A DNA stretch of 64,000 nt from Streptomyces sp. CGMCC 4.7035 (lineage in GTDB: Bacteria; Actinomycetota; Actinomycetes; Streptomycetales; Streptomycetaceae). Each line of letters opens with the position of its first letter. The stretch's first letter is position 1. Below are positions 53,510 through 63,634 of the stretch, piece after piece. A program made the position numbers and the translations under genes. The DNA is taken from NCBI RefSeq assembly GCF_031583065.1, contig NZ_CP134053.1, positions 6,241,001-6,305,000 of the forward strand. The letters run 5' to 3'. The notes under the pieces are model-generated. The model was not told the origin of the DNA. It searched no databases and saw only the letters and a list, made by a program, of their open reading frames with translations.

Positions 53510-53839
53510 ATGAGTGAGCACGTCGACTCCGCGGACCTGTGGGATTCGATCACCCGACTGCACGCGTGGCTGGACGCGAACCGCACGCACGACGGTGCGG
53601 ACGGCCTGCTGCTGCGCGTGCTGAAGCTGTCGGAGGAGGTCGGCGAGGTCGCGCAGGCGGTGATCGGCGCGACGGGACAGAATCCCCGCAAGGGCACGAC
53701 GCACAGCTGGGCGGACGTCGAGGCGGAGCTGTGCGACGTGGTGATCACGGCCCTGGTGGCCCTGCGCACCCTGACACCGCAGGCGCGCGAGGTGTTCGCG
53801 GCGCATCTGGAGAGGGTCACGAACCGCTCGCTCGGCTGA
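53510..53839 (+). CDS. MazG-like nucleotide pyrophosphohydrolase
   Basis: A 109-residue helical protein with the MazG/all-alpha NTP-PPase signature: L-K-L-S-E-E-V-G-E-V-A-Q-A-V and, further on, E-L-C-D-V-V-I-T (E-E-x-x-E...E-x-x-D metal site). These enzymes hydrolyse non-canonical or excess nucleoside triphosphates to monophosphates. ATG 53510. Probably co-transcribed with the DoxX gene. Confidence 0.87.
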   Translation: MSEHVDSADLWDSITRLHAWLDANRTHDGADGLLLRVLKLSEEVGEVAQAVIGATGQNPRKGTTHSWADVEAELCDVVITALVALRTLTPQAREVFAAHLERVTNRSLG

Positions 53840-54412: not shown

Positions 54413-54542
54413 ACCGGCTGGGCCGACCACAGAAGAACGGTGGCGTAGATCACACCGGATCTTGTCGCTCGCTTGTCGGCCACCTGCAACCTGGACCGGG
54501 TTCACACGTCTGTCGGGACGAAGGTGCCTTCACTGGAGAACC

Positions 54543-55196
54543 ATGACGACAGCCACGCACGCTTTCCCACCAGCCTCCACGAAAATGCGCACGACGCTCA
54601 GCGGATGGGCACGGCTGCTGCGCAGCGTGGCCCAGAGGCGGGAGCACCCTGACCCCGCCTTGCCACGCCCCTGCCCGAGCAGATCTCCCGACGCGTACGC
54701 GGCGGAGGGCACGCCTGGAATCGACGAGCTCTACCATGAGCACCGGCTGGGGCTGGTCCGGCTCGCGCTGTTGCTGGTCGATGACCTGCCCACGGCCGAG
54801 GACTTGGTGCAGGACGCGTTCGCCGCACTCGTCCGCAGGCACGGCGCCTGGCTGACGGGCGTGCACGACCCGGTGGCCTATGTCCGGACGAGCGTGGTGA
54901 ACGGGGCGCGTTCCGTACTGCGGCGGCGCAGGACCGCACGCGCACATGTCCCCGAACGGCAGAGCCCCGTTCCGCTGCCCGAAGAACACGTCCTGCTGAA
55001 AGAAGAGCACCGCGAAGTCCTCGACGCGCTGCGCAGACTCACCCGACGCCAGCGCGAGGTTCTCGTGCTGCGGTACTGGTCTCATCTTTCCGAGGCACAG
55101 ATCGCCGAGACGCTCGGGCTGTCCCGCGGGACGGTCAAGTCGACGGCCAGCAGGGCGCTGGACGCGCTCGGCAGGCACCTGGGGGCAACGCGGTGA
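54543..55196 (+). CDS. SigE-family ECF RNA polymerase sigma factor
   Basis: A 217-residue ECF sigma factor. After a 70-residue unusual N-terminal extension come region 2 (Y-H-E-H-R-L-G-L-V-R-L-A-L-L-L-V, then A-E-D-L-V-Q-D-A-F) and region 4 (L-T-R-R-Q-R-E-V-L-V-L-R-Y-W-S-H-L-S-E-A-Q-I-A). GGAGAA immediately precedes ATG 54543. TTGTCGCTCGCTTGTCGG upstream is a possible autoregulated promoter. The stop overlaps the next start by four bases, so the sigma factor, the small membrane protein and the mannosyltransferase form one operon. Confidence 0.87.
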   Translation: MTTATHAFPPASTKMRTTLSGWARLLRSVAQRREHPDPALPRPCPSRSPDAYAAEGTPGIDELYHEHRLGLVRLALLLVDDLPTAEDLVQDAFAALVRRHGAWLTGVHDPVAYVRTSVVNGARSVLRRRRTARAHVPERQSPVPLPEEHVLLKEEHREVLDALRRLTRRQREVLVLRYWSHLSEAQIAETLGLSRGTVKSTASRALDALGRHLGATR

Positions 55197-55576
55197 ACGG
55201 ATCGACGACTCACCCGAGGCGTGAACAGCTCGAAGACCGGCTGCGAGCCGCCCTCGACGCCAAGGCCCACAGCGTCGACATCAACGACCTGCGACCCGCC
55301 TTCCCGCCCCCGCAACCCGCCCGACCGCGATTCCCGGCTCGCCGCGTCGCCCTCCTCGGCCTCGGCCTCGTCATCGGCCTCGCGGCAGTGGCCGCGAGCG
55401 TCCTGCTCATCGCGGTCGGGCATGAGCCGTTCGAACCGAACGAGCCCGCCCGCCCGTCCCAGTCCCAGTCCCAGTCCCAGTCCCAGTCCCACAGCGAGTC
55501 CCCCACGACGCCGGTGGCAGGGGAACGCTCACCGTCCCCGTCCGCAACGGTGACGGAGACGAGCGGGCCGCGGTGA
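55193..55576 (+). CDS. Single-pass membrane protein with Ser/Thr/Pro-rich outer tail (putative anti-sigma partner)
   Basis: The 127-residue product has an about 48-residue cytoplasmic head (E-Q-L-E-D-R-L-R-A-A-L-D-A-K-A), one membrane helix (about 52-75) and an outer tail of about 50 residues that is mostly Ser, Thr, Pro and Gln, including an (S-Q)5 run encoded by five CCCAGT repeats (55458-55487). Position between an ECF sigma gene and a protein mannosyltransferase, with 4-bp overlaps on both sides (GTGA), suggests an anti-sigma factor or sensor. The head lacks a zinc-binding anti-sigma motif, so this is inference. Confidence 0.75.
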   Translation: MNGSTTHPRREQLEDRLRAALDAKAHSVDINDLRPAFPPPQPARPRFPARRVALLGLGLVIGLAAVAASVLLIAVGHEPFEPNEPARPSQSQSQSQSQSHSESPTTPVAGERSPSPSATVTETSGPR

Positions 55577-57246
55577 ATGAATCCTTGACCTGGACGGGCC
55601 GCTTGCGCCGCTTCGGTTACGTACCGCTTCCGCGCACCGACACCGGGGAACGCCTGGCGCCGAGCCATCCCCGGCCACCGACTCATCTCTGGCAGGCTCT
55701 GGGCTGTCCCCCGGCCGTCGCCTCCCGTGCCGCGAGGGCGACCGGCTGGCTGGGACCGTTGCTGACCGCCGCCATCGCCGGGGTGATCCGCTTCTGGCGA
55801 CTCGGCCGGCCGCACGACCTGATGTTCGACGAGACCTACTACGCCAAGGACGCCTGGGCTCAACTCCAGCTCGGCTACGAAACCGTGTGGCCGGACCGCA
55901 CAACAGCCGACCCGCAGATCCTCGCCCACCACCAGGTCATACCCCTCTCGGACACCGGTGCGTTCGTCGCCCACCCGCCGCTGGGCAAGTGGGTCATCGC
56001 CATCGGTGAGTGGCTGTTCGGCCTGAATCCGTTCGGTTGGCGCTTCATGACAGCGGTCCTCGGCACACTGTCCGTTCTGATGCTGTGCCGCATCGGACGG
56101 CGTCTGTTCCGTTCGACGTTCCTCGGCTGTCTGGCCGGCTTGCTGATGGCCGTGGACGGCTTGCACTACGTCATGAGCCGCAGCGCACTGCTGGACATCG
56201 TGGTGATGTTCTTCGTCCTGTCCGCGTTCGGCTGCCTGCTGATCGACCGGGACCGGGCGCGGGCGCGACTGCTCCAGGCGCTGCCCAGGGACGAGGCGGA
56301 CAGGGTGAGGCCGGATCAGCACACGGGCGACCGGGCCGGAATGGGGTGGCGGCCCTGGCGGTTGGCCGCCGGCGTCTCCTTGGGCCTGGCGGCGGCGACC
56401 AAATGGAACGGTCTCTATTTCCTGCTGTGCTTCACGGTGATGACCCTGCTGTGGGACGTGGGCTCCCGTCGTACCGCCGGGGCAGGGCACCCGTACCGCG
56501 CGGTGCTGCGCAAGGACCTCGGCTGGTCCGTGGCGTCCCTCGTCCCCGTCGCTCTGGCGACGTATCTGACGACATGGACCGGATGGTTCCTGTCCGACAA
56601 AGGGTATGGCCGGCACTGGGCGGACGGCCGGGGCGGCACATGGGCGTGGATCCCCGCGCCCCTGCGCAGCCTCTGGCACTACGAATACCAGGTCTACCAA
56701 TTCAATATCGGGCTGGAGAAACCCCACCCGTATCAGTCGAATCCGTGGAGCTGGCCGGTGCTCGGTCGCCCCGTACTGTTCTCTTTCGAGTCGTCACCCG
56801 ACGGACAGCACGGCTGCGGTGCATCCGGAGGCTGTGTGCGAGACATCACCGCTCTGGGCACACCGATGCTGTGGTGGTCGGCCTGTGGCGCCCTGATCTA
56901 CCTGCTGTACCGGTGGGCGCTACGACGCGACTGGCGCGCCGGCGCCGTCCTGTGCGCGGTGGCGGCGGGCTGGCTGCCGTGGTTCCTCTACCAGGACCGC
57001 ACCATCTTCTCCTTCTACGCGGTCGTCTTCCTGCCCTACCTGTGCCTGGCCGTGGCGATGACGGCCGGCGCGCTCCTCGGCCCACCCGGAGCCGCCCGAC
57101 GACGCCGCCTGTGGGGCACGGTGGGCGCCGGCACCCTCACGCTGCTGGTCCTGTGGAACTTCATCTATTTCTTCGCTCTGTACACGGGTACGCAGATCCC
57201 CAATACCTCTTGGCGCGAGCGGATGTGGCTCGACTCCTGGGTGTAG
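55573..57246 (+). CDS. Protein O-mannosyltransferase (PMT, GT39 family)
   Basis: The 557-residue, multi-helix enzyme transfers mannose from polyprenyl-phosphate mannose to Ser/Thr of exported proteins. The catalytic motif F-D-E-T-Y-Y-A-K-D-A-W sits in the first outer loop (about residue 79-89), followed by H-P-P-L-G-K-W. Later loops have W-H-Y-E-Y and H-P-Y-x-S-x-P-W-x-W-P, all typical of PMTs. GTG 55573 overlaps the preceding stop. Its C-terminus lies just before a set of GGAAAC repeats and the rnpB-derived repeat at 57302. Confidence 0.92.
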   Translation: MNESLTWTGRLRRFGYVPLPRTDTGERLAPSHPRPPTHLWQALGCPPAVASRAARATGWLGPLLTAAIAGVIRFWRLGRPHDLMFDETYYAKDAWAQLQLGYETVWPDRTTADPQILAHHQVIPLSDTGAFVAHPPLGKWVIAIGEWLFGLNPFGWRFMTAVLGTLSVLMLCRIGRRLFRSTFLGCLAGLLMAVDGLHYVMSRSALLDIVVMFFVLSAFGCLLIDRDRARARLLQALPRDEADRVRPDQHTGDRAGMGWRPWRLAAGVSLGLAAATKWNGLYFLLCFTVMTLLWDVGSRRTAGAGHPYRAVLRKDLGWSVASLVPVALATYLTTWTGWFLSDKGYGRHWADGRGGTWAWIPAPLRSLWHYEYQVYQFNIGLEKPHPYQSNPWSWPVLGRPVLFSFESSPDGQHGCGASGGCVRDITALGTPMLWWSACGALIYLLYRWALRRDWRAGAVLCAVAAGWLPWFLYQDRTIFSFYAVVFLPYLCLAVAMTAGALLGPPGAARRRRLWGTVGAGTLTLLVLWNFIYFFALYTGTQIPNTSWRERMWLDSWV

Positions 57247-57254
57247 TGATCCTG

Positions 57255-57292
57255 CGGAAACCGGAAACGCGGAAACACGGAAACGCGGAAAT
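57255..57292. repeat. Five tandem CGGAAAC-type repeats
   Basis: CGGAAAC starts at 57255, 57262, 57270, 57278 and (as CGGAAAT) 57286, with 7-8-bp spacing, between the end of the PMT gene and the 34-bp repeat. They could be binding sites for a recombinase or just a local expansion. Confidence 0.7.
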
Positions 57293-57301
57293 AGGGAACG
57301 C

Positions 57302-57335
57302 AGAGCGGCAGACGAGTCGGGCTGTACGCCGGGTT
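57302..57335. repeat. 34-bp direct repeat, distal copy (putative attL)
   Basis: Identical over 34 bases to 63219-63252, which contains the last 29 bases of rnpB. Similarity continues a few bases to the left (GAACG). The copy here has no RNase P RNA attached. Two such copies 5.9 kb apart, one completing an RNA gene, is the layout left by integration at the 3' end of that gene. Confidence 0.85.
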
Positions 57336-57393
57336 TTCCTGGAGCACCTTCTGGCCGGCTTCTTCGCGGGCCGGATCGGTTGTGACCCGCTAG

Positions 57394-58032
57394 TCAGCAG
57401 CCGACGGGCGCGTCCCCCCGGAACGCCCCGGCCACCACGGGGACGAGCTGCCGCTCGATCTGCTCGGCGGACATCGCGGCGAACTCGGTGCCGATGGGCG
57501 CCAACGCGAGCCAGTTCAGCAGGCCGGCTGCACATCGCGTACGGAAGACCAGTTCCTGCTCGGGGACTCCGGGAACGTTCGCCGTCAGCACCCTGAGGGC
57601 CTCCCTGCGGCACCGGTCGAACTTGCCGGTCAGCCTCTCCCACCCCTGGGGCGGATCGATACCGACGCGCGCCACGGTCCGCATCACGGCCAGCTCATGC
57701 CCACCGGCCGCCAGCGCGCGCATCATCGGCCGGGCGAACGCCGCCGCCACGTCCTGGAGCGTCGAAGTGGAGCCGAGCGGACCGAGCGCCAGAAGCTGTG
57801 CGTCCAGATACTGTTCCAACGCGTGCTCTATCGCCGAGTCACACAGCGCCTTCAGCGACCCGAAGTGGTAACTCACGGCGGCGACGTTGACTCCGGCGCG
57901 ATCCATGATCTCGCGGAGCGTCACGCCCTCCTGGCCGCGTTGCGCGATCAGCTCCAGAGCGGCCGTCTGCAGGCCGTCCCGGGTGCGCTGACCAGCCTCC
58001 CGGCGCAGGTCCGTCCTTTCTGCCCGTTTCAC
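57394..58032 (-). CDS. TetR-family transcriptional regulator
   Basis: The 212-residue protein has the TetR helix-turn-helix in residues 18-65 (L-R-E-I-M-D-R-A-G-V-N-V-A-A-V-S-Y-H-F-G) and a C-terminal TetR_C domain. GTG 58030-58032 is the likely start. It is divergent from, and nearly touching, the remains of an epoxide hydrolase gene, which was probably its target. Within the rnpB island. Confidence 0.8.
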   Translation of the reverse strand: MKRAERTDLRREAGQRTRDGLQTAALELIAQRGQEGVTLREIMDRAGVNVAAVSYHFGSLKALCDSAIEHALEQYLDAQLLALGPLGSTSTLQDVAAAFARPMMRALAAGGHELAVMRTVARVGIDPPQGWERLTGKFDRCRREALRVLTANVPGVPEQELVFRTRCAAGLLNWLALAPIGTEFAAMSAEQIERQLVPVVAGAFRGDAPVGC

Positions 58033-58051
58033 GCGATGTACCCAAGCAGAT

Positions 58052-58468
58052 GCTCGGCCCCAGACCGTCGGCTACGCCCTCGCCGACTCCCCCTCGGGAC
58101 AAGCCGCCTGGATCTACGAGAAGTTCCTCGACTGGACCGACAGCACCGGCCGGCCCGAGGGCGTCCTGTCCCGGGACGACATGCTCGACAACATCACGCT
58201 GTACTGGCTCACCGACACCGCCGCCTCCTCGGCCCGCCTGTACTGGCAGAACTACGGCGCGTCGGGACTGACCACGCTCGACCTGCCGGTGGGACCGAGC
58301 GTCTTCCCGCACGAACTCGTCCGCAGCCCGAAGATCTGGGCCGAACGCGCCTACAGCGACCTCGTCTACTTCAACGACCGGATCCCCCTGGGCGGCCACT
58401 TCGCCGCGTTCGAACAGCCCCTGCTGTTCACCCAGGAAGTCCGGAAGTTCGCCCGCCTGGTGAAGTGA
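58052..58468 (+). pseudogene. Epoxide hydrolase, C-terminal third only
   Basis: The frame begins in mid-domain with R-P-Q-T-V-G-Y-A-L-A-D-S-P-S-G and continues through D-N-I-T-L-Y-W-L-T-D-T and G-G-H-F-A-A-F-E-Q-P to a TGA at 58466-58468. This is the end of an alpha/beta epoxide hydrolase with an EHN domain, including the catalytic His of G-G-H-F. The nucleophile Asp and about 250 N-terminal residues are absent, cut off beside the TetR start. Not functional. Confidence 0.8.
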
Positions 58469-58561
58469 CCCCGGATCACCCCTGACGCAGGTGCCGCTTC
58501 ATGCACCCGCCCAGCCACACCTAAGATGGTAGAGAGGTCAACCTTCTCGTAGGGTGGGGCT

Positions 58562-59029
58562 ATGCCCATGGAGGAAGCACCCCGCTGGCTGAGCCCGGTC
58601 GAGGAACGAGCCTGGCGAGGCATGCTGCGCATGCACGACCTGCTGGTCAATCAGGCCGGGCGGACCCTGCAGAGCGAGTTCGGGCTGTCCGCGACCGACT
58701 ATTCCGTGCTCGCGGAGCTGACCCGCGCGCCCGGCGACCGACTTCGAGTGCTGGAACTCGCGAAGGTGCTCGGGTGGGAGAAGAGCCGTGTGTCGCACCA
58801 TCTCTCGCGCATGGCCAAGCGCGGCCTGGTCGCCAGGGAGGAGTGCCTCGACGACGGACGCGGGGCGTACATGATGGTGACCGCGGCCGGCCGTGCGGCC
58901 CTGGAGAACGCCGCGCCCCAGCACGTGGAGGACGTCCGGCGTCTGTTTCTGGACCACCTCTCGCCCGGCCAGATCACGCTGCTGGCGGAGATCACCGACT
59001 CGGTCATCGAGAAGATCGACATCAATTAG
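58562..59029 (+). CDS. MarR-family regulator (copy 1)
   Basis: A 155-residue winged-helix regulator: L-S-A-T-D-Y-S-V-L-A-E-L, L-G-W-E-K-S-R-V-S-H-H-L-S-R-M (recognition helix) and R-G-A-Y-M-M-V-T wing. It is clearly paralogous to the MarR at 62252 (most of the HTH region identical). An imperfect inverted repeat AGAGGT-CA-ACCTTCT lies about 20-35 bp upstream and may be its own operator. ATG 58562 follows GGGTGGGG. Confidence 0.85.
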   Translation: MPMEEAPRWLSPVEERAWRGMLRMHDLLVNQAGRTLQSEFGLSATDYSVLAELTRAPGDRLRVLELAKVLGWEKSRVSHHLSRMAKRGLVAREECLDDGRGAYMMVTAAGRAALENAAPQHVEDVRRLFLDHLSPGQITLLAEITDSVIEKIDIN

Positions 59030-59215
59030 CCGGCGCAGCGCGCCCGAGAAGCGATCCGTGGTTTGACTGACGAAGCGCCGACCACCCGACAGTCGAAGGC
59101 GGCGGACGACGTGGTCCGCTCACCGCCCCGGGGAACCTCAGGAGACCGGGCAACCCCGCCGGGATCACTCACGTCGCTCGCGCCCTCGCCTCCACGGACT
59201 CGTCGGCCGCCCTGC

Positions 59216-60011
59216 TCTCGCCTCGGCTTCCCCCTGGGCGAGCAGCTCCAGGAAGCCGTCGTCACGCTGCTGCACGGCCTCCCGGCCCCGGCCTTCGAAT
59301 TCCTGCTGCTGGCCGTGCACGCGGGAACCGATCGGATGGACACCCTGCTGAAGGCGGCCCGGCTCGCCGACGTCCCCGCCGCCGCGCCGGCGTCGGCAGA
59401 GTCCGCCGGGCTTGATCGGCGTGGAAGCGGGGCAGCTGCGTTTCCGGCATCCGCTGGTGCCCTCGGCGGTGCACTGGAGCGCCTCCTTCACTCAGCGACG
59501 CCGGGTGCACCTCGCCCTGGCCGAGTCGTTCGTCGGCGCCCCCTACGAACGCGCCCCGCACCGCGCGGCCGTCTCCGCGCAACCGGACGAGTCCACGGCC
59601 GCCGCGCTGGAAGAAGGCGCGACCGACGACCTCCCGCAGGCCGTCGCCGTCCTGGAGACGGCCGCCGACCTCAGTCCGGCCCGACGGGACCAGATCCGCA
59701 GACTGATCAAAGCGGCCCACGCGGCGGCGATGCGCGGACAGACCCCCGTACTGCGCGGCCTCGTCAGACGGATCATCGCCCTGCCGGCGGACGCGGAGCA
59801 CGCCGCGTCCGCGCGTGCGCTGGAGGCACGGCTCGCCTGTCTCACCGAAGGGGTGCCGGCCCACGCCCTCTCGCTGCTCACCAGCTCGGTGACCGCCAGG
59901 CACACACAGTGGCCCGCCGCCCTTCCTGCCACTGCCGACAGCCGTCGTGGCGGAGCGCTCGGCGGGGCCGCCGCCCCGGACGGCGGAATGAACGCGTTCG
60001 CCGATTGTTGA
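59216..60011 (+). pseudogene. LuxR-type (AAA-LuxR) regulator, internal fragment with frameshift
   Basis: One frame gives L-Q-E-A-V-V-T-L-L-H-G-L-P and on to A-E-S-A-G-L; the neighbouring frame then continues I-G-V-E-A-G-Q-L-R-F-R-H-P-L-V-P-S-A-V, A-H-R-A-like helices and L-E-A-R-L-A. This is the region following the ATPase in large LuxR regulators (the G-x-L-x-F-R-H-P-L-V-R-S-A-V box is diagnostic). The Walker ATPase part, the end and the helix-turn-helix are missing, and a one-base shift near 59412 breaks the rest. Confidence 0.7.
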
Positions 60012-60018
60012 AAGCGGC

Positions 60019-61041
60019 ATGAAAAAGATCGGGTTCCTGTCCTTCGGACACTGGACGCCGTCGCCGCACTCGAAGACGCGTTCCGCGTCGGACTCGCTGC
60101 TGCAGGCCATCGACCTCGCCGTCGCCGCGGAGGAGCTGGGTGCGGACGGCGCCTACTTCCGCGTCCACCACTTCGCACGACAGCACGCCTCACCGTTCCC
60201 GCTCCTCGCCGCCATCGGCGCGCGCACCAGCCGGATCGAGATCGGCACGGGTGTGATCGACATGCGCTACGAGAACCCGCTGTACATGGCGGAGGACGCG
60301 GGCGCGGCCGACCTCATCGCGGGGGGTCGGCTCCAGCTCGGCCTCAGCCGGGGCTCACCGGAGCAGGTGATCGACGGCTGGCGCCACTTCGGCTACCGGC
60401 CGCCGGAGGGCGGCACCGACGCCGACCTGGCCCGTGCCCACACCGAGGAACTGCTCCAGGCCCTCACCGGGGTGGGGTTCGCGGAGCCGCACCCCAGTCC
60501 GATGTTCGCCAACCCGCCGGGGCCGCTGCGCATCGAACCGCACTCTGAGGATCTGCGCGACCGGATCTGGTGGGGTTCCGGCTCGAACGCCACCGCGGTC
60601 TGGGCCGCCGGGCTCGGGATGAACATGCAGAGCTCGACCCTCAAGGACGACGAGAGCGGCGAGCCGCTCCACGTCCAGCAGCGCAAGCAGATCGAGGCGT
60701 ACCACGAGGCATGGCGCGCCGCGGGCCACTCGCGCACGCCCAGGGTGTCGGTCAGCCGCAGCGTCTTCCCGCTCGTCGACGAGCGGGACCGTGCGTACTT
60801 CGGCCGGGACCGCGACTCGAAGGACCAGATCGGCTACATCGACGCCGACACCCGCAGCATCTTCGGCCGCTCCTACGCCGCCGAGCCCGATGCGCTCGTC
60901 AAGCAGCTGGCCGAGGACGAGGCTGTCGCCGCAGCCGACACGCTGCTGCTGACCGTGCCCAACCAGCTCGGCGTCGACTACAACGCGCATGTCCTCGACA
61001 GCATCCTGACGCACGTCGCGCCGGCTCTCGGCTGGCGCTGA
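60019..61041 (+). CDS. LLM-class (luciferase-like) flavin-dependent monooxygenase
   Basis: A 340-residue TIM-barrel oxidoreductase of the bacterial-luciferase-like class, using FMN or F420. Markers are I-G-F-L-S-F-G-H-W at the start, A-A-E-E-L-G-A-D-G-A-Y-F-R-V-H-H-F, I-E-I-G-T-G-V-I-D-M-R-Y-E-N-P and G-R-L-Q-L-G-L-S-R-G-S-P. Complete and well conserved, unlike its neighbours. ATG 60019 follows GAAAGCGG. NpdG (33637) shows that F420 is present in the cell, but which flavin is used cannot be told. Confidence 0.88.
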   Translation: MKKIGFLSFGHWTPSPHSKTRSASDSLLQAIDLAVAAEELGADGAYFRVHHFARQHASPFPLLAAIGARTSRIEIGTGVIDMRYENPLYMAEDAGAADLIAGGRLQLGLSRGSPEQVIDGWRHFGYRPPEGGTDADLARAHTEELLQALTGVGFAEPHPSPMFANPPGPLRIEPHSEDLRDRIWWGSGSNATAVWAAGLGMNMQSSTLKDDESGEPLHVQQRKQIEAYHEAWRAAGHSRTPRVSVSRSVFPLVDERDRAYFGRDRDSKDQIGYIDADTRSIFGRSYAAEPDALVKQLAEDEAVAAADTLLLTVPNQLGVDYNAHVLDSILTHVAPALGWR

Positions 61042-61337
61042 GGAACGGAGCCGAGGCGGGCGCCGCCCGGCGAAGCCGCGTCCCACACGGACGCCGGGGA
61101 CCCGGCGGCGCCTTCGCCCGGCGGCGATTGGAATGCGCCGCCAAACCGCACCAAAAGCGACATCACACCCGTCCAGCCACAGACGCCACGGCGATCATCC
61201 CCCGACGTCATCACGCAAGAGCAAGGCAGATGACACTTCAACTTGTTAGTTGACACGTCATCTTCTTGGTTCTAATGTGATTGAACGCAAAACGGACCAG
61301 CGGGCGGGCAGGCCGCCACGAACACAGGAGAGACGTC
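61042..61337 (+). promoter_or_regulatory. Promoter region of the SDR gene with MarR-like operator
   Basis: A near-consensus promoter, TTGACA (61250-61255), 17 bp, TAATGT (61273-61278), is overlapped at its -35 by the palindrome TCAACT-TGTT-AGTTGA (61238-61253). Its core resembles the element before marR copy 2 (TATCAACTTGATA). The part 61042-61230 is GC-rich with no gene. Confidence 0.7.
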
Positions 61338-62087
61338 ATGGGACAGCTGCACGGCAAGACGGTCGTCATCACCGGTGGCACCAGCGGCATCGGGCTGGCG
61401 ACGGCCCAGCGCTTCGCGCAAGAGGGCGCCCACGTCTACATCACGGGTCGCCGCAAGGAGGTCCTCGACCAGGCCGCCGAGCAGATCGGCGGCAACGTCA
61501 CCCCGGTCCAGGCCGACAGCTCCAACCTGGCCGACCTCGACCGCCTGTACGCCACCGTCGCCGAGGCCGGGCACCAGATCGACGTCCTGTTCGCCAACGC
61601 GGGCGGCGGCGAGTTCGCCCCCCTCGACCAGGTCACCGAGGAGCACTTCGACAGCACCTTCGACAGCAACGTGAAGGGCACCGTCTTCACCGTGCAGAAG
61701 GCGCTCCCCCACCTGGTCGACGGCGCCTCCGTCATCCTCACGGGCTCCATCGCCGGCGTCTCCGGCGACCCGGCCTTCGGTGTCTACGGCGCCTCCAAGG
61801 CCGCCATCCGCTCCTTCTCCCGCACGTGGGCCAACGAGCTCAGCGGGCGCGGCATCCGCGTCAACACCATCTCCCCCGGCCCCATCACCACCCCCGGGCT
61901 CAACAGTCTCGCCGCGGACGAGGAAGGTGCCGCGCAGCTGCGAGAGACCCTCACCGGCATCGTCCCCCTCGGCCGCATGGGCCAGCCGGAGGAAGTCGCC
62001 AACCTTGCGCTGTTCCTCGCCACGGACCAGTCCAGCTTCATCACCGGCACCGAGATCTTCGTCGACGGTGGTGCCAAGCAGGTGTAA
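61338..62087 (+). CDS. Short-chain dehydrogenase/reductase
   Basis: A 249-residue classical SDR. Cofactor motif T-G-G-T-S-G-I-G, N-A-G-G-G, catalytic Ser in T-G-S-I-A-G, and Y-G-A-S-K; the end I-F-V-D-G-G is typical. T-G-R-R-K after the second strand suggests NADPH. AGGAGAG eight bases before ATG 61338 and a strong promoter upstream indicate a well-expressed, inducible gene. marR copy 2 follows 165 bp downstream. Confidence 0.92.
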   Translation: MGQLHGKTVVITGGTSGIGLATAQRFAQEGAHVYITGRRKEVLDQAAEQIGGNVTPVQADSSNLADLDRLYATVAEAGHQIDVLFANAGGGEFAPLDQVTEEHFDSTFDSNVKGTVFTVQKALPHLVDGASVILTGSIAGVSGDPAFGVYGASKAAIRSFSRTWANELSGRGIRVNTISPGPITTPGLNSLAADEEGAAQLRETLTGIVPLGRMGQPEEVANLALFLATDQSSFITGTEIFVDGGAKQV

Positions 62088-62230
62088 AGCGGCCCAACCC
62101 CGCGAGGCAACGGGGCCGTGGCACTCCGTCCCGGCCCCGCCGCCTCCCGGCCGTGGGCCCGCCGGCCCACCGCTCAGGCGGCGCGATCGCGGCGCAGGTG
62201 CCCGAGGCGCCATGAGGCAAGTAGGTGATG

Positions 62231-62243
62231 TATCAACTTGATA
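62231..62243 (+). promoter_or_regulatory. Candidate MarR operator before marR copy 2
   Basis: TATCAA-C-TTGATA, a perfect 13-bp palindrome nine bases before the start codon. It shares TCAACTTG with the SDR promoter operator at 61238-61253. Confidence 0.6.
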
Positions 62244-62251
62244 GGGGGGTC

Positions 62252-62728
62252 ATGACCGCTGAACCACCCCGCTGGCTGACGGGGGTCGAAGAACAGGCCT
62301 GGCGGGGCCTGCTGAGTGTGTTCGAGCGCCTCATCACACGTACCGGGCAGCCCCTGCAGACCGAGTACGGACTGTCCGCCGCGGACTACATGATGCTCGC
62401 CGAGCTGACCCGTGTGCCCGGCGGCAGGCTCCGCGTCCTGGAGCTCGCCAAGGAACTGGGGTGGGAGAAGAGCAGGGTGTCCCACCACATGGCACGGATG
62501 GCGAGGCGCGGTCTGGTCGACCGCGAGACGTGCGCCTACGACCGCCGCGGGGTGTACGTGAGCGTGACACCGGCCGGCTACGAGGTCATGTCGGCGGCGA
62601 CCCGGCGTCACGCGAACGACGTTCGCCGACTTTTCTTCGACCACCTCACCTCCGCTCAGGTGACCCAACTGGCAGAGATCACCGATACGGTGCTGGACGT
62701 TCTCGCGGGGTTGCCCGTCCGCGACTGA
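62252..62728 (+). CDS. MarR-family regulator (copy 2)
   Basis: The 158-residue paralogue of the MarR at 58562: same opening P-P-R-W-L, L-S-A-A-D-Y-M-M-L-A-E-L-T-R and L-G-W-E-K-S-R-V-S-H-H-M-A-R-M. GGGGGG lies before ATG 62252. The palindromes here and in front of the SDR gene point to control of both by this protein. Confidence 0.85.
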   Translation: MTAEPPRWLTGVEEQAWRGLLSVFERLITRTGQPLQTEYGLSAADYMMLAELTRVPGGRLRVLELAKELGWEKSRVSHHMARMARRGLVDRETCAYDRRGVYVSVTPAGYEVMSAATRRHANDVRRLFFDHLTSAQVTQLAEITDTVLDVLAGLPVRD

Positions 62729-62755
62729 TGCGCCGGGTCCGCGGTCGTGCAGGTG

Positions 62756-62846
62756 TCACCGGTGGTCCCCGTCCGCGTCCCGCGCGGACAGGGCGTCCCT
62801 GAGAGCCCCGCGAGAGGTGATGCCGAGCTTCGGATAGATGCGGATA
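62756..62846 (-). pseudogene. LuxR helix-turn-helix, second half (reversed)
   Basis: On the minus strand I-Y-P-K-L-G-I-T-S-R-G-A-L-R-D-A-L then 11 residues and TGA. This is the end of a LuxR-type DNA-binding domain. Its first half lies right next to it but on the other strand, so the domain has been split by an inversion. Confidence 0.65.
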
Positions 62847-62945
62847 GCCCGCCTGGCGGCCGCCGGTCTGTCCAACCGGGAGATCGCCGGCCGACTCCGA
62901 ATCTCCCCGCGCACCGTCGCCTCGCGCCTGGACGACGCGTTCGCC
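62838..62945 (+). pseudogene. LuxR helix-turn-helix, first half
   Basis: On the plus strand I-A-R-L-A-A-A-G-L-S-N-R-E-I-A-G-R-L and I-S-P-R-T-V-A-S-R-L: the recognition part of a LuxR domain, directly abutting its reversed second half. Downstream of about 62945 the frame becomes unrelated. Together with 59216-60011 these are pieces of one or two broken large LuxR regulators. Confidence 0.7.
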
Positions 62946-63218
62946 CGGATGACAGGAGGCGAACCCTGGGACGTCATGCGTCCGGCCATGTCAGCCTTCT
63001 ACGTGTACGCGCTGGGCGGCACCGTTGGCAGCCGCCTTGACATGTCGCGAGCAATGTCACCCGTCCCGGCCCGGTCAGGGGTCACTGGAGAACTCGCCAT
63101 CAGTGCTCGGGTTCGGCCAGAGCAGGCCGCCGGGGAGAGCGACACGCTGCCCATGCGCCGTATCCGGGCATTCTGGGTGTCAAATGTGCTCCCGTCCTGC
63201 TCTGACCTGCGAGAACGA

Positions 63219-63252
63219 AGAGCGGCAGACGAGTCGGGCTGTACGCCGGGTT
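63219..63252. repeat. 34-bp direct repeat at the 3' end of rnpB (putative attR)
   Basis: Covers the last 29 bases of rnpB plus five bases beyond. It is identical to 57302-57335. Sequence 62946-63218 between the LuxR fragment and this repeat holds no gene I can recognise. Confidence 0.85.
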
Positions 63253-63634
63253 CTGTTCCGAGGGGTCCTCGCGGGCCCCTCGGCGACGGCCATCCATCTA
63301 GGACCGGCGTTGCCGCCGGCCTCGTGCGGTCTACCCGCGGACTCGGGCGGGCAGCCCTCGAACGTCCGCGCAGGAGCACCGGGGTGCTCCCTTTTGACCT
63401 TGCTCCGGGTGGGGTTTACCTAGCTGCCCAGGTCACCCTGGGCACTGGTGGTCTCTTACACCACCGTTTCACCCTTACCCAGCGCCTGAGCGCCGGGCGG
63501 TCTGTTTTCTGTGGCACTGTCCCGCGGGTCACCCCGGGTGGCCGTTAGCCATCACCCTGCCCTGTGGAGCCCGGACGTTCCTCGGGAAGCCCCCTAGGGG
63601 GACTCCACGCGGCCGTCCGCCCGGCTCGTCTGCC
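63224..63634 (-). ncRNA. rnpB: RNase P RNA (type A)
   Basis: The catalytic RNA of RNase P, which matures tRNA 5' ends. On the minus strand the 411-nt sequence starts GGCAGACGAGCCGGGCGG and ends GCCCGACTCGTCTGCC, so the two ends form the P1 helix. Universally conserved pieces are present: GAGGAACGTCCGGGCTCCAC (CR I region), AGGGTGAAA with GGTGCGGTAAGAG-like context, and AGATGGATGGCCGTC near the 3' part (CR V). The 3' end carries the sequence duplicated at 57302-57335. The 5' end overlaps the EamA reading frame by 41 nt. Confidence 0.95.

Follow-up and report, generated by a model that had tools for sequence, protein, structure and literature searches.

Genomic islands, prophages and integrative and conjugative elements (ICEs, or AICEs for those of actinomycetes) integrate at the 3' ends of tRNA and tmRNA genes, as do pSAM2 and SLP1 in Streptomyces; cis-mobilisable elements (CIMEs) are known from the ICEs of streptococci, phage satellites include the phage-inducible chromosomal island (PICI) type, and defence islands are found at integration hot spots. 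We propose here, with good confidence, that the DNA between 57.3 and 63.2 kb of the window (the whole 64,000-nucleotide stretch of Streptomyces sp. CGMCC 4.7035 that was analysed) is a decayed, integrase-less, CIME-like mobile element placed at the 3' end of rnpB, the RNase P RNA gene, by site-specific recombination. What is seen directly is a duplicated core, an intact rnpB, a left end common to other species, a site occupied in many Streptomyces and integrases abutting it in relatives; the last three uphold the integration at the rnpB 3' end that an earlier note on this DNA had put forward. As in the elements at tRNA and tmRNA sites, the locus has a direct repeat of a gene 3' end, an intact gene end, variability on one side and, in several relatives, a tyrosine integrase by one attachment (att) copy. 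It differs from them in its target, rnpB, and in that the unit in the window has no integrase and, among the open reading frames (ORFs) scanned, no replication or transfer gene. Nearly all bacteria depend on RNase P RNA, so that a site at the end of its gene would almost always be present, and an element that restores this end would do no harm.

The argument starts from the repeat and the gene whose end it contains.
63219..63252, + strand: attachment copy on the rnpB side, 34 bp exact, or 40 bp (63213-63252) with one mismatch
57302..57335, + strand: distal attachment copy, without rnpB, 34 bp exact, or 40 bp (57296-57335) with one mismatch
63226..63628, - strand: rnpB, RNase P RNA, intact (RF00010, 290 bits, model 1-367 of 367), its 3' end being the attachment site

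The copies form a direct repeat with a spacing of 5917 bp, a maximal exact length of 34 bp and a length of 40 bp when one mismatch is allowed, and the right-hand copy is the terminus of an intact, full-length rnpB. Repeat comparison and the RF00010 model thereby confirm the exact repeat, with no rnpB at its second copy, that the earlier note had described; the repeat does include the rnpB 3' end, although the model assigns to it the last 27 bases of the gene and not the last 29. A 29-bp core pattern, with up to three mismatches, occurs in only two places in the whole 8.09-Mb genome, which are the two repeat copies, and the reversed pattern gave no match in this genome or in any genome surveyed. 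On the side of the RNA itself, the fifth pair of helix P1 is a C-A mismatch in 93 of the 108 rnpB genes compared (that of the window and 107 others), and the mismatched A falls inside the attachment core; this comparison pooled rnpB genes with and without an island and has no bearing on integration scars.

The use of rnpB had been considered unusual, yet in Streptomyces the site is a hot spot: at least two core copies are present in 100 of 391 other genomes of the genus (392 surveyed, the own genome included), a count in which some second copies with one mismatch to the degenerate pattern may be due to chance, the reversed pattern giving none. Pairs on the same strand, within 150 kb on one contig, were found in at least 48 genomes, as against two with a pair on opposite strands, and among the same-strand pairs listed the spacing is at most 10 kb in 16, 10-60 kb in 22 and more than 60 kb in 10. 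Nearby second copies in the same orientation had been found in five genomes (G007, G015, G033, G034 and G058; G and L numbers are our handles for genomes and loci) of a first set of 100 relatives. Full reading of 14 pairs showed 13 (G007, G009, G015, G033, G058, G127, G169, G171, G193, G210, G249, G309 and G423) in which one copy ended an RF00010 gene and the remaining one or two did not. In the fourteenth, G359, rnpB lies at neither copy, which suggests that some elements occupy second sites; distant rnpB-less copies in G040 (L044) and G049 (L047) and an own-contig copy in G022 (L043) would fit the same explanation.

The named loci, which overlap partly with the genome survey so that the two are not independent, give a similar picture. 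A search of up to 10 kb of flank found a second core downstream of rnpB in 6 of the 79 loci (L117, from S. diastatochromogenes; L136; L159; L166; L180; and L184, from S. shenzhenensis), and three more core matches (L159, L123 and L190) lie upstream of rnpB or on the opposite strand. Three or more consecutive core copies can be read from the sequence of G033/L117, G216 and L180. Conservation switches at the attachment site: pairwise blastn coverage averages 0.654 for the 5' side of rnpB and 0.022 for its 3' side, falling to 0.018 in the first 200 bp 3' of the gene, for the 64 of 79 loci having 8 kb on both sides (79 of 80 loci were used, L174, which is without core, being dropped). These sequence surveys support the view that the rnpB 3' end is a recurrent attachment site, or hot spot, in Streptomyces.

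A further line of evidence comes from the ends of the element, the left of which matches an end type that we call type alpha.
57336..57393, + strand: element end adjoining the distal copy, alike in L184, L205, L201 and L043, the likeness stopping at 57393
63193..63218, + strand: element end next to rnpB, with a CTCTGACCTGCG motif placed as in the common end type, a weak match

The distal inner arm scored 67, 62, 42 and 40 against L184, L205, L201 and L043, respectively, compared with at most 30 in 5000 random stretches, and the arms of the window and L184 are identical in 51 of 62 aligned columns. The arm of L203 is similar by eye, with a score of 24 that was reached by 18 of 5000 random stretches. 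Short islands of different species have ends in common, and in 24 of the 79 named loci the 120 bp downstream of the core contain the motif CAGGTCA or TGACCTG, which was found upstream of rnpB in 2 of 79 and in 36 of 1580 random stretches.

Recombinases that could account for such a layout are found in relatives. In G034, a tyrosine integrase (PF00589, phrog_1 and, weakly, PF22022) ends ~30 bp from the core, and the island is a ~56-kb prophage with portal, terminase, major head protein, tape measure and endolysin. In G204, G148, G122, G265, G184 and G282, the distance between a related integrase and a core copy is 88-105 bp, and five of these genomes have a partner core copy, placed by pattern match, 75-116 kb off. 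The core was found within the locus in 10 of the 30 integrase loci examined (the seven just named, G325, G112 and G176), and on the integrase tree the rnpB label requires 3 changes as against 8.6 in shuffles, with none of 500 as low, a result to which near-copies contribute. Both things that the earlier note had advised looking for, duplicated rnpB 3' segments and recombinases close by, are thus found across Streptomyces, as cores and tyrosine integrases. A phage source of the phage attachment site (attP) was considered and rejected: the 35-base core matched only two faecal fragments in the phage collection, in which the G034 integrase found 12 records, all below 60% identity and none over more than 80% of its length. 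As to plasmids, the unannotated L079 contains the core beside an element-like flank, and one of 18 kb that encodes a related integrase gave no core at up to 5 mismatches.

Among 18 short islands, only those of G034 and G249 gave a PF00589 match, the other 16, the window's included, giving none; three of the 18 (G202, G296 and G230) were placed by pattern only, the island of G359 is not at rnpB, and the G034 integrase was itself found only at E 1.9e-4, so that very divergent integrases may escape. It can be hypothesised that such short elements are specialised, integrase-less satellites borrowing an integrase in trans from the large rnpB elements, as these 16 islands, the five pairs 75-116 kb apart with an rnpB-type integrase by one copy, and the same ends in short islands of different species would allow. 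We consider this unlikely, since the ORF lists vary between islands with no common gene set noticed by eye, the unit in the window contains broken genes and its genome lacks a close helper integrase, the best match to the rnpB-type integrase being 37% over 341 of 418 residues, followed by four weaker or partial matches. The lack of a close integrase of this type makes mobilisation in trans today look unlikely, and among the three fates that had been envisaged (decayed, mobilised in trans or satellite) the first is favoured; the element in the window is probably immobile at present. Short stretches resembling the rnpB-type integrase were noticed in L191 (18280-18360) and L204 (9567-9663, the latter adjoining the core), and, judged from their sequence, it is possible that they represent stages of integrase loss.

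The 5.9-kb unit between the two copies contains the following genes.
57394..58032, - strand: TetR regulator (57394-58054 also found in other genomes, 75-89% alike)
58055..58468, + strand: hydrolase-like C-terminal fragment, broken, named by our own reading, no Pfam match
58562..59029, + strand: MarR regulator 1, from the Pfam scan
59187..60011, + strand: remnant of a large regulator, frame broken, identity by our own reading, no Pfam match
60019..61041, + strand: luciferase-like monooxygenase (LLM), PF00296
61338..62087, + strand: short-chain dehydrogenase/reductase (SDR), from the profile scan
62225..62728, + strand: MarR regulator 2, paralogue of MarR 1 (300-bp DNA repeat, 75% alike)
62838..62980, + strand: LuxR-type helix-turn-helix (HTH) fragment, broken, from the profile scan and reading of the sequence

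The Pfam scan of the ORFs agrees with the earlier description of TetR, two MarR paralogues, LLM and SDR between the copies; of the four or more broken genes claimed there, three were located, two of them by our own reading, and a fourth was not established. No PF00589 match, a test that may miss very divergent integrases, was found in the unit, in keeping with the integrase-free element described before. The eight ORFs scanned with Pfam, the only search for serine recombinases made there, included no serine recombinase; nor did they include replication or FtsK-like transfer genes, phage-like packaging or interference genes, or a transposase, and the terminal repeat is direct, so that the unit does not qualify as an AICE, a PICI or a transposon. 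It shares with the PICI type its small size, the lack of an integrase and a common att site, but differs from it in having no phage-type gene among the ORFs scanned. As the unit has no integrase, we file it as a decayed, CIME-like island rather than as an autonomous element. The resemblance to CIMEs, drawn from sequence alone, lies in an att-flanked unit without integrase and in the consecutive core copies of G033/L117, G216 and L180; the differences are the site, the host and a partner element not seen in this genome.

A search of 296 genomes, own genome included, matched parts of this cargo in 135, mostly as separate pieces, namely TetR (57394 to ~58054, 75-89%), the hydrolase from 58055, LLM and SDR. 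In G316 LLM adjoins SDR, and in G149 a 4-kb span includes both together with MarR; at none of the 14 best cargo loci of other genomes is a core present within 1.5 kb. A mosaic of this kind, whose pieces lie scattered elsewhere, could also have arisen if the rnpB 3' end had been copied by homologous recombination or segmental duplication and the genes between had come by ordinary gene flow, and the G033 copy, which retains a longer, worn rnpB stretch, points the same way. This is highly improbable, given that the other distal copies read retain little of rnpB beyond the core, that pair orientation is uniform (48 as against 2) and that element ends in common and integrases adjoin the copies.

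The flank to the left of the distal copy bears on how far the inserted DNA extends.
53510..53839, + strand: MazG-like gene (PF03819, 19.3 bits, under the cut-off of 22), the rnpB neighbour at the empty site in L172
53891..54412, + strand: 173-aa protein, taken as core in this lineage, common to L118 (85%)
54413..57295, + strand: probable older inserted unit, with an extracytoplasmic function (ECF) sigma factor, a small ORF and PMT (55573-57246), inferred, without an attachment copy at its far end
57248..57295, + strand: GGAAACGC-like repeats outside the distal copy, with weak likeness to the rnpB-side element end (score 20, reached by 16 of 5000 random stretches)

In relatives, the DNA beside rnpB is homologous to that of the window up to 53.84 kb. 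The MazG-like gene of L172 (Streptomyces sp. RB17) starts 58 bp from a single core copy, which constitutes the one clear empty site, and the left-flank DNA of L137 starts 170 bp from the core; in 14 of the 79 named loci the left-flank match nearest to rnpB is 1.1-8.4 kb off, these distances being those of the nearest tblastx match, sometimes short, and 8 contigs being of insufficient length. L118, which has the highest identity to the left flank of the window (83-86%), shares it as far as 54.41 kb, beyond which 5.9 kb of other DNA follow. PMT homologues in other genomes are at most 76% alike, and the 29 best of their loci all lack a core within 1.5 kb. The earlier note had taken the PMT gene as the core left flank and predicted an empty site joining it to rnpB; no such junction was found, L172 joining the MazG-like gene to rnpB, and PMT is rather probably part of the inserted DNA. 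Because the PMT loci lack the core and the MazG-like gene is next to rnpB in L172, the inserted region appears larger than 5.9 kb, and the sequence comparison indicates that it probably begins at about 54.4 (or 53.84) kb and ends at 63.21 kb, a length of ~8.8-9.4 kb. It is perhaps composed of two tandem units, the older one with the ECF sigma factor and PMT and the 5.9-kb one, a tandem reading that we infer, the outer side of the distal copy being only weakly like a rnpB-side end. Immediately outside that copy, at 57262-57293, an 8-bp GGAAACGC-like unit is repeated in tandem.

These flanks also bear on whether the whole region could be a conserved chromosomal gene block, its left copy being a chance or regulatory repeat. 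Core genes conserved between PMT and rnpB, which had been named beforehand as evidence against integration, are not what we find. The 3' side of rnpB is not conserved, the core is confined to two places in the genome, and neither PMT (29 loci) nor the best cargo matches (14 loci) are near a core elsewhere. The sole contrary point is the TetR piece located 4.6 kb from rnpB in L124 (83%), an exception among the named loci; a chromosomal block can hardly be entertained and was rejected on the non-conservation of the 3' side and the core-free PMT and cargo loci.

Several observations weigh against the integration of a mobile element as we propose it. The best score of the rnpB-side end is 28, reached by 2 of 5000 random stretches before correction for 137 comparisons. 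In 55 of the 79 loci the left-flank genes of the window are missing within at least 9 kb of rnpB, for which other rearrangements are partly possible. The empty site is not seen in a close relative, the shared DNA of L172 being 78-79% alike, and in the nearer L118 (83-86%) the site is occupied by other DNA. Lastly, neither an integrase nor a remnant of one was found in the unit, and no integrase match came from L184 (tblastn and three ORFs) or from the G359 element, which have the same end type. With these points taken into account, integration followed by decay is the reading we retain. Judging from the anatomy of the locus and from its relatives, a recombinase, most likely a tyrosine integrase, would have joined an element-borne rnpB 3' end to the chromosomal copy, and in doing so would have rebuilt the gene end. 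Integrase and backbone would have been lost afterwards, leaving the patchwork of TetR, MarR, LLM and SDR between the left and right attachment sites (attL and attR), and the older PMT-bearing unit probably alongside would mean that the locus has grown by tandem accretion.

The open-access literature searched, a scope outside which most subscription papers fall, does not name rnpB as an attachment site. In the passages of papers covered, rnpB serves as a typing marker or as a promoter, is annotated as an RNA or figures in a reference title (PMC2516327, PMC5462765, PMC4524478, PMC2705793, PMC8776855, PMC2386152, PMC2824730, PMC3541175, PMC2864759). Should the rnpB 3' end prove to be a standing hot spot, a single short marker sequence would serve to locate prophages and accessory islands, among them some that carry defence genes, throughout Streptomyces; the integrases of this site would become candidates for use in stable insertion, and what becomes of integrase-less islands at a known site could be tested.

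Other islands illustrate what the site can receive. The 30-kb island at rnpB in G007 (L033/L034, copies at 2239472 and 2269744) has PglW, BrxC/PglY, PglZ and BrxHI, that of G309 has type I restriction, and in G049 a methylase adjoins rnpB. These contents recall the defence islands of integration hot spots, from which the unit in the window differs in having no recognised defence gene; the scan of the islands for defence covered eight proteins picked as promising, and therefore shows presence and not a rate. The four G007 proteins are members of BREX type 2/Pgl, and a PDC-M23B helicase-like protein is also present there. At the second site of G359 (L201/L202), a 22.8-kb element with Cas10 lies between two rnpB-less core copies, and a large serine recombinase gene is situated just outside it.

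In three of the type-alpha elements (L201, L205 and L043), a 512-aa HTH protein with at least 328 homologues adjoins the distal end. The idea that it is a recombinase was considered and gained no support: it gave only HTH matches in Pfam, only weak regulator matches in NCBIfam and a poor model (pLDDT 54.7). It is quite possible, and we put this forward tentatively, that the genus-wide rnpB hot spot serves prophages and defence islands, and that one type among them, with shared ends, often the 512-aa HTH protein and a ParA-like ATPase, and no recognisable integrase so far, moves by a recombinase still to be found or only with help in trans, the window holding a worn member of it. The own genome itself encodes one homologue of the 512-aa protein, at 3.39 Mb; the same arm lies next to it, but the target there is different, namely the 3' end of a tiny ORF, which is likely to be a further attachment site, also seen in G040 (L222). 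This own-genome element was noticed at L219 9867-10300 and 16757-17237; the tiny ORF, by our own reading, is MPHITAFARNQWYS, and a second such end lies 6.9 kb away.

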